Origin: a virus | Virus record (IMG/VR): IMGVR_UViG_3300037502_001142 | Location: 1-21,826 of that record | DNA: 21,826 nt | Direction: 5' to 3' (one strand) | Part shown: piece after piece, positions 2,247 through 6,562 of the stretch | How positions within the stretch are numbered: the stretch's first letter is position 1 | How the letters are laid out: the number at the start of each line of letters is the position of its first letter | Notes under the pieces: generated by a model | What the model was told of the DNA's origin: nothing | Seen by the model: only the letters and a program-made list of their open reading frames with translations | Database searches by the model: none | Translations under genes and position numbers: made by a program

Positions 2247-2877
2247 CCGCAATGCTTTCAGGAAGTTTATTCCTCATTCTAAGTACGCAGATCAATGGTA
2301 TGAGGCTCTATTTAGCCAGCAAACAGAACTCAGTGGTAAGTCTCTCCTGCAAGAATACGAAATAACCACTCCTAACCGTATAGCGGCTTTCCTAGCCCAA
2401 TGTCATCACGAATCAGGTGGGTTCGTATGGCTAACGGAAAACCTGAACTACTCTGCTTCAGGACTCCTTAAAGTATTCCCTAAGTATTTCTCTACAGACG
2501 CTCAAGCTAAGGCTTACGCTAAACAGCCGGACAAGATTGCGAACCATGTTTACGCCAACCGCATGGGTAACGGTGACGAGGCTAGCGGAGATGGGGCTAG
2601 ATACAAGGGCAGAGGACTGATCCAGCTAACGGGCAAGGATAACTATTTCTGGTTCGCTGCTAGCCTTGAGATGACTCCAGAACAAGCCTCAGAGTACACA
2701 CAGACGTTTGAAGGTGCTGCCCAATCTGCTTGCTGGTTCTGGGAGACTAACAAGCTCAATCGATTCGCTGATGCCACAGACTTGCGAGGCATGACTAAGG
2801 TCATTAACGGTGGTTACAAGGGTATGGAAGATAGAGAGGCTCAGTATGCGCGCGCTTTGGCTGTTGTTCATTCTTAG
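2239..2877 (+). CDS. Endolysin, glycoside hydrolase family 19 (chitinase-like muramidase)
   Basis: This 212-residue protein degrades peptidoglycan at the end of infection. The GH19 signature is plain: AQCHHESGGF around residues 53-62 carries the predicted general acid Glu58, LTENLNYS has the second acidic residue Glu67, and ARYKGRGLIQLTGKDNY near 120-137 is the conserved substrate-cleft segment. There is no signal peptide or anchor, so it should depend on a holin for access to the wall. It starts with GTG 2239, overlapping the previous stop by 8 nt; GAGAGG upstream can serve as ribosome-binding site. The full catalytic domain is present, without a separate binding domain. Confidence 0.92.
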   Translation: MIDRNAFRKFIPHSKYADQWYEALFSQQTELSGKSLLQEYEITTPNRIAAFLAQCHHESGGFVWLTENLNYSASGLLKVFPKYFSTDAQAKAYAKQPDKIANHVYANRMGNGDEASGDGARYKGRGLIQLTGKDNYFWFAASLEMTPEQASEYTQTFEGAAQSACWFWETNKLNRFADATDLRGMTKVINGGYKGMEDREAQYARALAVVHS

Positions 2878-3028
2878 TCTCGTAGGCTGTGAGGATAGGT
2901 TCCGTTATCCTTGCCAAGATAACAAAAACTGGAATAAACCTGAGTGCCAGCGTCCTACTTGTGCTGTAACGGGAACCTGTCCAGATCAATTAGTACCTGC
3001 TGCCGACTTTAAGCCGGAGGAAAAATGA
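2846..3028 (+). CDS. Small lipoprotein, Cys-rich, unknown function
   Basis: Translation from ATG 2846 gives 60 residues: a basic start (MRALW), a hydrophobic stretch and a lipobox LVGC with Cys15 as the lipidated residue. The mature part contains EDRFRYPCQ and three further cysteines (CQRPTCAVTGTC). An in-frame start at 2810 exists but would hide the signal peptide, and an AGAGAGG stands before 2846. The gene overlaps the endolysin 3' end by 32 nt. I recall CEDRFRYPCQD-like lipoproteins in other phages near lysis or tail genes, but none with a known role. An outer-membrane job in lysis or superinfection exclusion is inference. Confidence 0.75.
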   Translation: MRALWLLFILSLVGCEDRFRYPCQDNKNWNKPECQRPTCAVTGTCPDQLVPAADFKPEEK

Positions 3029-4460: not shown

Positions 4461-4651
4461 AGTCTGCGCTGGCAAGTAAATGCTTGGATGTCTACGCGAA
4501 ATGCCCCTGCGAACTTGCAGTCAGAAGCAATCCGAGATTCTGTCTGTATACCGCCGACATACCATCCGATCACGCAGAGCAGGATAGCGACGATAGACTT
4601 AGCCCACCAGCCATTGACCATATCGATAGCTTTAGCAATGTCATTTGTCAT
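4457..4651 (-). CDS. Small single-pass membrane protein
   Basis: This 64-residue protein has one transmembrane helix at about 19-36 (SIVAILLCVIGWYVGG), a short amphipathic start and a polar tail with two cysteines. It overlaps its neighbours on both sides (11 nt and 4 nt), which suggests coupled translation. No family is recognised. A small early membrane protein could affect host uptake or exclude other phages, but nothing in the sequence decides this. Confidence 0.55.
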   Translation of the reverse strand: MTNDIAKAIDMVNGWWAKSIVAILLCVIGWYVGGIQTESRIASDCKFAGAFRVDIQAFTCQRRL

Positions 4652-4949
4652 CTTTAACGAATACTCCTTCCTTATTCAGAAAGCCTTTGCGATCCTTGAT
4701 CTGATCGTATGCTGACTGAAAACAGTGTTTTAGATCGACATCTTCAATAGCAGCAACCATAGTGAGGCATACAAGAACGTCGCCAAGTCCGTCAATAATT
4801 GATTCACGATCTCGTTTGGTAATCGCATCTGCTAATTCCCCCATCTCAGAGAAAGCCTTGAGAAGCTGCGTCTTAGCGTCTGAGTTCTGGATGATTCCTC
4901 TAGCCTCACCCCAACGGACTACTAACAATTCGGTTGCTTCATAGCTCAT
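4641..4949 (-). CDS. MazG-like nucleotide pyrophosphohydrolase
   Basis: This 102-residue protein has the all-alpha NTP pyrophosphohydrolase pattern. SEMGELADAI at about 34-43 supplies the ExxE metal ligands (Glu35, Glu38), and IIDGLGDVLV at about 51-60 supplies the matching acidic residues (Asp53, Asp57). Enzymes of this family hydrolyse NTPs or dNTPs to the monophosphate and pyrophosphate; phage forms are thought to adjust nucleotide or alarmone pools in the infected host. It is a single-domain MazG, shorter than the two-domain bacterial enzyme. It lies between a Cro/CI-type HTH gene and small ORFs, overlapping the HTH gene by 4 nt. Confidence 0.8.
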   Translation of the reverse strand: MSYEATELLVVRWGEARGIIQNSDAKTQLLKAFSEMGELADAITKRDRESIIDGLGDVLVCLTMVAAIEDVDLKHCFQSAYDQIKDRKGFLNKEGVFVKDDK

Positions 4950-5137
4950 AGGAAACTCTCGATTTCTTCAATAGGCATGGCAAAGGTCTTGTGAATGGCG
5001 ATCATCATGCTAGCCGATACGCCATATCGCTCGTTACGAATCTTGCTAATGGTAGGAGTTGATACGCCTAGCGTTAGGGCTAGTTGGCGGTCATTCTTAA
5101 TGTTGTAGGTCTTTAGTAAATAGTCCAGCAATTCCAT
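4946..5137 (-). CDS. HTH DNA-binding protein, Cro/CI (XRE) type
   Basis: This 63-residue protein is little more than one helix-turn-helix domain. RQLALTLGVSTPTISKIRNERYGVS (about 17-41) matches the XRE/Cro pattern, with GVSTPTISKIR as the turn and recognition helix. It probably acts as a transcriptional regulator of phage genes. AGGAGA lies 5 nt before its ATG, and a 5-bp inverted repeat sits just upstream at 5156-5171 as a possible operator. No integrase is present in the window, so this need not be a lysogeny repressor; a Cro-like lytic switch is as likely. Confidence 0.78.
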   Translation of the reverse strand: MELLDYLLKTYNIKNDRQLALTLGVSTPTISKIRNERYGVSASMMIAIHKTFAMPIEEIESFL

Positions 5138-5342
5138 GTTTTCTCCTGAGTTAATGCCCGTCTTTCCGGGCTGTCAACATACTCACACAGAGGGGAGAAA
5201 CCTACCTGATAGGAGACTGTGCGTATGCTGCGTAGGTTATGTGCGCCACCTATCGCTAGGCTTAAGGGTGAGGTACTCGCTACACCAGTTCTATCCTTGA
5301 CGATTTGTTAATCGAAAAGCTGGCATCTGCTTTCCCTCATAA
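5138..5342. other. Non-coding leader upstream of the HTH gene, with inverted repeats
   Basis: No convincing gene is seen in these 205 bases on either strand. It contains a 5-bp inverted repeat with a 6-nt centre (5156-5171), a 7-bp inverted repeat AACCTAC/GTAGGTT (5199-5238), and a GATAGG/CCTATC pair. On the minus strand TTGACA (5177-5172) stands 17 nt from a weak TTAACT. It probably holds control sequence for the HTH-MazG genes, or a structured leader RNA. Confidence 0.5.
5156..5171 (-). promoter_or_regulatory. Inverted repeat upstream of HTH gene, possible operator
   Basis: GCCCG and CGGGC flank a 6-nt centre. On the minus strand the repeat fills the spacer after a consensus TTGACA (5177-5172), and the position opposite a -10 reads TTAACT, a poor match. 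A start there would fall inside the ribosome-binding site, so the promoter reading is weak. Autoregulation by the adjacent HTH protein is an inference. Confidence 0.35.
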
Positions 5343-5489
5343 TCAAAAGCAACTTGTATTGCAGTTGCCACCATAACAGCAGGTTGTACAGGTCACATAC
5401 CGACCATCGTAGTAATAGCTATGTGTCGAGCAGCTAGCCCAAACGAGAGGGGCTGTAAGAGCTAACCAGAGTGCGAATAAGTATTTCAT
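5343..5489 (-). CDS. Small cysteine-rich secreted protein
   Basis: A 48-residue ORF starts at ATG 5489, 5 nt behind a strong AAGGAG. Residues 1-18 form a signal peptide (MKYLFALWLALTAPLVWA) with a likely signal peptidase I cut after VWA. The 30-residue mature part has six cysteines (20, 34, 37, 38, 43, 47) plus Tyr and Gly, suggesting a disulfide-bonded mini-protein in the periplasm. It lies just downstream of SSB on the same strand, 9 nt from its stop, so it is probably in the recombination operon. Cys20 does not fit a proper lipobox. No family with a known function is recognised. Confidence 0.72.
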   Translation of the reverse strand: MKYLFALWLALTAPLVWASCSTHSYYYDGRYVTCTTCCYGGNCNTSCF

Positions 5490-5498
5490 AGTTTCTCC

Positions 5499-5909
5499 TT
5501 AGAATGGTGCGTCACTAAGATCATCGTCTTGAAACTCTACTTTCTTTGCTGGTTTCTTTGGTTCTTTGCTTTCCGTTGCTTTCCCAAGCATTTGCATAAA
5601 GTCGCAATTAATGCCATAACTAACACGCTCAATGCCTTCTTTGTCTATGTACTTATTGCTTTTAATCTTTCCTTCAATATATACCTCAGAGCCTTTAGTA
5701 AGGTACTGCTGTGCGATTTCTGCAAGTTTCCCAAACGCAGTTATTTTGTGCCATTCAGTTGATTGCTTTTTTTCCTTAGTGACTTTATCTGTCCATTTCT
5801 CATTTGTCGCTAGGCTAAATGTGGCTACTGAATCTCCACTGCTTTGATAGCGTATTTCTGGGTCTTTGCCAAGAGTTCCAAGCAAAATTACTTTATTTAC
5901 TGATGCCAT
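5499..5909 (-). CDS. ssb: Single-stranded DNA-binding protein
   Basis: This 136-residue protein is a standard SSB. The OB fold covers about 1-110, with NKVILLGTLGKDPEIRY, FSLATNEKW, STEWHKITAFGKLAEIAQQYL and EVYIEGKIKS as recognisable strands. The C-terminus is acidic and ends DDDLSDAPF, close to the D-D-D-I-P-F tip through which bacterial SSBs recruit partner proteins. It should coat ssDNA in phage replication and recombination, and it follows the ERF annealing protein by two bases. It is shorter than E. coli SSB (about 178 aa) because the linker is short. Confidence 0.95.
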   Translation of the reverse strand: MASVNKVILLGTLGKDPEIRYQSSGDSVATFSLATNEKWTDKVTKEKKQSTEWHKITAFGKLAEIAQQYLTKGSEVYIEGKIKSNKYIDKEGIERVSYGINCDFMQMLGKATESKEPKKPAKKVEFQDDDLSDAPF

Positions 5910-5911
5910 AT

Positions 5912-6562
5912 TTACCCCTTAGTAAATTTCTTAATTGCTGATCGCTGCTTGCTATCCAACTGGCTCCAGAGTGCAGTCTTCCAATCTGCATCTAGCTCCA
6001 GAGAATTGATGTACTCCACTGCCTCGCTTACCTGATCTTTGTGAATCAGCATAATTACGTCGGCTGCGTAGCTTTTAATTTCTTCCTGTGACTGTTCGTC
6101 TAACGTATCAAATACGGACTTAGTAATAGGCTTAGATGACTTAGGTTCTTCTGAGCCTGTTGTAGCGTCTAACTCATCATGCTCACAGATAGCTAGAGCC
6201 ATTACCAGAAGATAACGAGTAATGTAGGTAATCGATGCGCCTAGATTCTGGACATCGTGACAGCCTTTCAATTGAGCCGAAGCCATAGGGCAGGTGAACT
6301 TAGCGCAGCCACCATTAACCGTATCAATGACTCGCATTGTCGCCAGATCGTTGGTGAACTCTAGCGTATGGCAAAGACCTAGTTTAGCAAATATCGAGTT
6401 GACTGTAGGTAGGAAGTCGGTCAGTTCAAAGTAGCGATACCCTGCGAACTTGTTATGTCCTGACTTCTTTAGCTCGATATTCTGGAGCTTGACTCTGGCT
6501 TGCTGGAGTTGTGCGTACACAAGCCATTGGCGATGTTCCTCTTGTTCCTGCTGGTTGTTCAT
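5912..6562 (-). CDS. erf: ERF family single-strand annealing protein
   Basis: This 216-residue protein matches the ERF superfamily of phage recombinases. KKSGHNKFAGYRYFELTDFLP (about 32-52) is the family hallmark, followed by PMASAQLKGCHDVQNLGASITYITRYL (about 91-117) and EHDELDATTG. ERF proteins anneal complementary single strands and act in recombination-dependent replication, repair or genome circularisation. The partner SSB is directly downstream. Residues 125-216 form a charged, helical C-terminal region that is less conserved. The gene starts at ATG 6562, close behind a small conserved-looking ORF. Confidence 0.9.
   Translation of the reverse strand: MNNQQEQEEHRQWLVYAQLQQARVKLQNIELKKSGHNKFAGYRYFELTDFLPTVNSIFAKLGLCHTLEFTNDLATMRVIDTVNGGCAKFTCPMASAQLKGCHDVQNLGASITYITRYLLVMALAICEHDELDATTGSEEPKSSKPITKSVFDTLDEQSQEEIKSYAADVIMLIHKDQVSEAVEYINSLELDADWKTALWSQLDSKQRSAIKKFTKG

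Follow-up and report, generated by a model that had tools for sequence, protein, structure and literature searches.

A small exported six-cysteine protein encoded by an accessory cassette in the early operon of environmental phages

What does a gene for an exported, disulfide-rich peptide do among the recombination genes of a phage? The question arises from a short ORF in a virus record of the IMG/VR type (here the window, meaning the whole stretch of 21,826 bases analysed), to which a sequence-only reading had ascribed a strong ribosome-binding site, a signal peptide, a 30-residue mature part with six cysteines and an operon shared with SSB and ERF genes. The ORF is present on the minus strand at 5343-5489, where 48 codons and a stop encode MKYLFALWLALTAPLVWA (signal) followed by SCSTHSYYYDGRYVTCTTCCYGGNCNTSCF (mature). 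Residues 1-18 form the signal peptide (5436-5489, minus strand), ending at a VWA/S cleavage site, and the mature domain is encoded by 5346-5435 (minus strand), with its six cysteines spaced C-13-C-2-CC-4-C-3-C; both of the patterns singled out beforehand, CxxCC and CxxxC, are found in it. The Shine-Dalgarno sequence AAGGAG, read from the sequence at 5495-5500 (minus strand), lies 5 nt from the ATG and overlaps the stop codon (5499-5501) of the upstream SSB gene (5499-5909, minus strand; PF00436, E 1.7e-34), beyond which lies the gene for an ERF single-strand annealing protein (5912-6562, minus strand; PF04404, E 4.7e-14).

A conserved gene for an exported protein

Scanning IMG/VR with the mini-protein of the window gave 522 relatives, 80 of which were kept, and scans with divergent members gave at least 566, at least 466, and 538 matches, the counts from the separate scans overlapping. 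Reading of the loci with a profile HMM gave 277 with the mini-protein gene, among which contigs fetched by more than one scan are unmerged, and 152 distinct proteins, the safer number. An alignment of 134 rows, one of them a diverged tandem paralogue from L052, has no invariant columns other than the six cysteines; loss of the cysteines among related phages had been set in advance as the refutation of the initial proposal, and this refutation fails. A18, T35, T36 and T45 are likewise invariant in an alignment of 130 rows, and divergent members found later (for example that of locus L390, with CTVCC) keep the cysteines but not T36.

The translation, its conservation and the pattern of substitution identify the ORF as a gene. 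Mature dN/dS is 0.136 (867 of the 14,365 pairs of 170 distinct sequences) and that of the signal peptide 0.454 (3,958 pairs), saturated pairs and pairs with fewer than two synonymous changes having been dropped. That the ORF is a chance reading frame, or arises incidentally from a conserved nucleic-acid element, is extremely improbable: its frequent absence from close relatives would suit such an origin, but mature dN/dS is low, both cysteine codons are in use at all six sites, a Shine-Dalgarno-like site is kept upstream at 225 of 232 family loci, and the other frames over the gene are interrupted in 130-168 of the 170 sequences. Promoter- and terminator-like sites, such as morons of temperate phages have for themselves, were no commoner at the gene than in shuffles, and a terminator-like hairpin across its last codons (5348-5369) was dropped, two sites being found against 2.7 expected.

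We also screened 437 loci mechanically (3.31 Mb, both strands; 234 of the loci had been fetched via the mini-protein gene itself) for ORFs combining a Shine-Dalgarno site, a signal peptide and at least four cysteines at 10% density. This returned 287 ORFs of the mini-protein type, six of one second family and seven of one lysis-region lipoprotein, with no other kind of ORF on either strand, which is more than chance. The window has a small cysteine-rich, lipoprotein-like ORF at 2849-3028 on the plus strand (CEDRFRYPCQD...), between endolysin-like and holin-like genes; it had no PHROG match, and its relatives are seven ORFs in the screen.

Every one of the 152 distinct proteins has an AxA-type signal peptidase I site before the first mature cysteine, and none has a strict lipobox. 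A more permissive lipobox pattern, which we take to be of the PROSITE type, matches 75 of the 152. A lipoprotein reading was dropped in view of the strict lipobox and signal peptidase I counts. The permissive matches may explain, without supporting it, the name 'Lipoprotein' given to UniProt entry A0A6J5M8Q5 from an uncultured Caudovirales phage, a protein of 49 amino acids with 73% identity over the mature part and a TM score of 0.97 between predicted structures. This entry is a member of the family and its name is automatic.

Searches of Pfam, PHROGs, NCBIfam and PADLOC gave no convincing match for the mini-protein, the best E-value of 0.0089 falling far short of the cut-off. The candidates YoaP (E 0.13; 0.0089 for the best of 99 mature parts), CopI (E 0.05) and phrog_4446 (E 0.36) were rejected as chance-level. 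PDB sequences held no relative; two contig scans of bacterial genomes with narrow peptide patterns found none either, a result that does not establish absence. By tblastn against 50,697 phage records only MW202462 and MW202544 matched, equal in length and both 100% identical over the gene. In MW202462, a complete environmental phage record, the gene (755-895 of that locus) is unannotated, its place being taken by an annotated ORF on the opposite strand. Open-licence PMC papers yielded no account of the family, which may have been overlooked because the gene has only about 48 codons. The mini-protein would thus appear to be new as a family and as a predicted fold, while a small, early, exported phage protein is of a known sort.

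Predicted fold and disulfide pairing

AlphaFold2 on 99 mature sequences (mean pLDDT 90.6) places three strands at residues 2-9, 12-21 and 24-29 of the mature numbering, and a full-length run gave the same three strands. In structural comparison by Foldseek and VIA-align the only matches were weak ones, to small sheets (best VIA Z 3.5), the search with the full-length model being confounded by the signal helix. If the two-residue turns are put at 10-11 and 22-23, the six cysteines fall at the non-hydrogen-bonded cross-strand pairs 2-19, 16-29 and 20-25. Among all placements of two two-residue turns, the predicted one alone pairs all six cysteines at non-hydrogen-bonded positions, and six random positions would fit such pairing with a probability of 6e-5. 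The predicted disulfides are C20-C37, C34-C47 and C38-C43, a pairing derived from strand limits and register rather than read from model coordinates.

Since the AlphaFold model may have been guided by the cysteines, three observations from the alignments count as further facts. Among the 151 distinct proteins with the full pattern, an eight-cysteine variant has Cys26 and Cys31 together in 28, and neither residue occurs singly as cysteine in any; these positions (mature 8 and 13) fit the same register as the other six. No two positions of the mature protein are coupled more strongly than 26 and 31. Ten of the 151 vary in length, each time between cysteines on either side of a predicted turn, and their extra residues can be read as turn insertions. 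Taken together these observations make a disulfide ladder very likely, and the initial claim of an exported, disulfide-rich product has strong support from the sequence, its conservation, covariation and modelling.

Since metal-binding proteins can have cysteines in CxxCC and CxxxC spacing, those of the mini-protein might bind metal instead of forming disulfides. We regard this as highly improbable for a protein that is exported and has an even number of mature cysteines, with Cys26 and Cys31 gained as a pair and a unique in-register pairing of the six.

An accessory cassette beside a structured RNA

Gene neighbourhoods were read at 186 of 234 loci after removal of identical close flanks, with mechanical ORF calling. 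Of the 180 loci with an ORF upstream, 155 have the nearest one on the strand of the gene (median gap 10 bases). Genes that recur nearby encode annealing proteins (Sak- or ERF-type and RecT-like), small SSBs, YqaJ exonuclease, O-like replication proteins and Cro-like regulators; a reading of the maps gives at least five arrangements, and the recombination-gene neighbourhood recurs across several phage lineages. In the window the right flank of the slot is a conserved CI-like HTH gene (4946-5137, minus strand; PF07022, E 2.2e-7), followed on the same strand by a MazG-like pyrophosphohydrolase gene (4641-4949; PF03819, E 4.7e-9).

Among 80 loci found through the ERF of the window, 44 carry the mini-protein gene, 25 have the HTH flank without it and 11 are cut. 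The junctions of empty sites are clean in the ten loci aligned: the gene is bounded by the SSB stop codon on one side and by a conserved stretch on the other, and the SSB-HTH gap is about 213 bases without it versus about 365 with it. The 25 empty records, several of which are fragments, held no copy of the gene elsewhere, and five of five positive controls were found. On an ERF tree of 69 rows, the presence of the gene needs at least 16 changes, eight of them forced by starred branches, and the six-cysteine, eight-cysteine and empty states together need 19; this is a quick tree with 21 of 56 inner branches weak, on which near-copies cluster (by shuffles). Two identical ERF proteins differ in the state of the slot, and the same mature mini-protein occurs in unrelated flanks, as at L206 and L209 (95.9% gene identity). 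At three loci (L244, L274 and L275) the slot is filled by an ORF of 146-148 amino acids that looks HNH endonuclease-like by eye. The clean presence or absence between close relatives that characterises moron-type genes was found, and the gene is an accessory cassette in the phage early operon. Of the proposed operon with SSB and ERF, the shared strand, the spacing, the Shine-Dalgarno site over the SSB stop codon and the recurring recombination neighbours bear out the arrangement; the tie to recombination gives way to a cassette that lies in the early operon and outside the recombination machinery.

The SSB seems to be exchanged at this locus too. That of the window is a full OB-type protein, most same-flank relatives having a short SSB-like protein that shares only its C-terminal tail with it. 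At L052 (2856-2999 and 3087-3230; also at L054 and L059) the mini-protein gene is tandemly duplicated; in the L052 pair the upstream copy has kept the cysteines but diverged almost everywhere else, and an RNA core lies ahead of each of the two.

This core belongs to a conserved structured RNA that lies beside the slot, at 5138-5342 on the minus strand of the window (core 5274-5334), and was identified by covariation and by core matches. An alignment of 40 sequences, comprising the window and the 39 of 59 HTH-flank loci that hold the core motif within three mismatches, supports a structure of 42 pairs in which 98.9% of cells pair and 14 pairs show changes on both sides, with a covariation score of 0.278; shuffles score 0.138, and sliding gives 0.073 at most. 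The minus strand is suggested by the many G-U pairs, such as columns 31-73 and 136-174. Its core reads GAAAGCRGAUGCU-stem-GCAGCGAGUA, with a hypervariable stem. Rfam has no family at threshold for the window RNA and gave only chance matches for the copy at L033 (3606-3707); further copies lie at L145 (4144-4250) and at loci from L318 to L437. From these alignments and searches the RNA is possibly a new class of phage RNA. At L305 the variable stem, upstream of the mini-protein gene (1558-1725), has a stretch that resembles a tRNA T-arm by eye (GGTTCAACTCC).

The core is found within 200 nt and on the same strand at 91 of the 277 gene-bearing loci, and 84 of 95 core hits start 0-19 nt past the stop codon. 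A pattern for the RNA alone matched at least 120 loci, and among the 120 listed the mini-protein gene lies within 150 nt in 12, on which count we dropped the possibility that the RNA goes with the gene. In most of the loci listed the RNA follows SSB-like or ssDNA-annealing-like genes by about 10-17 nt (by eye). As in most of these loci it occurs without the mini-protein gene nearby, the RNA marks the site independently of the gene.

The second family returned by the screen, newly found here, consists of secreted proteins of about 42 amino acids with four cysteines and the motif CPxGxxYxC..NGKxxCGC. Members lie at L325 (3368-3493, minus strand), L340 (1515-1637), L364 (990-1115), L426 (4888-5013) and L438-L501. 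The six from the screen are all on the strand of the RNA, at a distance of 11-217 nt. Scanning with an alignment of the six gave 64 loci, 63 with the ORF and all 63 of these with exactly four cysteines; the RNA lies within 250 nt in 24 of the 63, and the fetched flanks of 44 encode relatives of annealing, SSB, exonuclease or MazG proteins. The family resembles the mini-protein in its signal peptide, even cysteine number, early neighbourhood and place beside the RNA, but differs in having four cysteines in another spacing and a mature part without evident similarity. That one early slot accommodates two unrelated secreted disulfide mini-proteins argues for a role, common to both, that is directed at the envelope.

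Candidate roles in the envelope

The Rz-like and Rz1-like spanin genes of the window, which also holds holin- and endolysin-like genes, imply a Gram-negative host with an outer membrane and a periplasm. Among cultured phages with a named host, Methylophilales phage Venkman has the nearest terminase (63.6%), from which we would guess at a methylotroph; Venkman itself has no copy of the mini-protein (best HMM hit 14 residues, E 0.005).

From gene position and sequence features we infer early timing, a periplasmic location and an oxidised state. The protein would leave the cytoplasm through the Sec pathway, lose its signal to signal peptidase I and fold in the host periplasm into a three-stranded antiparallel sheet of 30 residues, stapled by the three predicted cross-strand disulfides and, in the eight-cysteine variant, by a fourth (C26-C31). 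Made early, it may bind an envelope target and thus block entry or genome injection by later phages. Early position, export, size, disulfides and the behaviour of an exchangeable gene lead us to favour, with a probability of roughly 0.45, a periplasmic protein of superinfection exclusion or of the envelope, acting in the manner of T4 Spackle, T5 Llp or Rtp45, with exclusion and its target a best guess by analogy.

Among small, early, periplasmic phage proteins whose role is known, several are exclusion factors. T4 Spackle (gp61.3) is early, periplasmic and very small, with a cleaved signal and one disulfide, and inhibits the gp5 tail lysozyme as a 75-residue helical bundle (PMC7677548); T5 Llp is a small periplasmic superinfection-exclusion lipoprotein with a disulfide (PMC9586334), Rtp45 of phage Rtp is an exclusion lipoprotein of about 6 kDa with a disulfide and a beta-hairpin (PMC12685063), and exclusion proteins are often made early (PMC9586334, PMC12685063). 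The mini-protein resembles Spackle in its early-operon position, signal peptide, very small size and predicted disulfide bonding, but is a predicted sheet of 30 residues with three disulfides rather than a bundle of about 75 with one, and the two show no sequence family match. With Llp and Rtp45 it would share small size, phage origin, a periplasmic location and disulfide bonding, but Llp, Rtp45 and Cor, which act from the periplasm by binding a receptor of the outer membrane, carry a lipid anchor, and a strict lipobox is absent from all 152 mini-proteins; family searches, as distinct from direct comparison, gave no similarity to Llp or Rtp45. The mini-protein fails a defining feature of each of Spackle, Llp and Rtp45 and is assigned to none of them. 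Two findings weigh against exclusion: these functional relatives Llp and Rtp45 are lipoproteins and the mini-protein is not, and its mature sequence is unusually conserved for an arms-race factor (T35, T36 and T45 invariant in 130 rows), although such conservation would also suit a conserved host target.

A protein that acts on the host would share several of these features. Made early for host takeover or counter-defence, it could inhibit an envelope enzyme, a stress sensor or a membrane-anchored anti-phage defence from within the periplasm, and its early position, the three strongly conserved threonines on the sheet, its occurrence in unrelated phages and its ready gain and loss fit this role. 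The lack of a PADLOC match tells against it weakly, as that library lists defence proteins; we consider this role somewhat unlikely. Periplasmic tuning of lysis, for which T4 RI is the model, would have the protein act with holin, endolysin or spanin so as to delay or protect lysis; a periplasmic, predicted disulfide-bonded protein and the lysis-like genes of the window suit it, but the gene lies in the early operon on the strand opposite to those genes and moves between phages with unrelated backbones, and such a role is unlikely. Release as a toxin, bacteriocin-like peptide or signal for other cells is very unlikely. Beta-hairpin antimicrobial peptides are disulfide-laddered, and a secreted protein with a ladder, only predicted here, is reminiscent of them, but the mature part has no net charge in 45 of the 152 distinct proteins and a net charge of +1 in the other 107, unlike the strong positive charge of cationic membrane-active peptides. 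Phage integrase (PF00589) was found in none of 34 records, fragments included, which makes a lysogeny signal unlikely, and no immunity gene was recognised.

Returning to an exclusion or envelope protein, we tentatively extend the proposal from the gene to its site. Environmental phages may share a dedicated early 'secreted mini-protein slot', positioned after ssDNA-binding or annealing genes and beside the new structured RNA, in which unrelated disulfide-stapled families (the six- or eight-cysteine sheet and the four-cysteine family) could be exchanged as envelope weapons and be interchangeable in phage-phage competition, and the RNA may serve expression or exchange of the cassette. Phages that differ in nature by a full or an empty slot can be compared as near-isogenic pairs, and a scaffold of 30 residues, its turns variable and its fourth staple optional, is simple to make and test. 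If these proposals are right, one of the smallest disulfide-stapled phage folds would be widespread among environmental phages as an exchangeable factor of exclusion or of the envelope.
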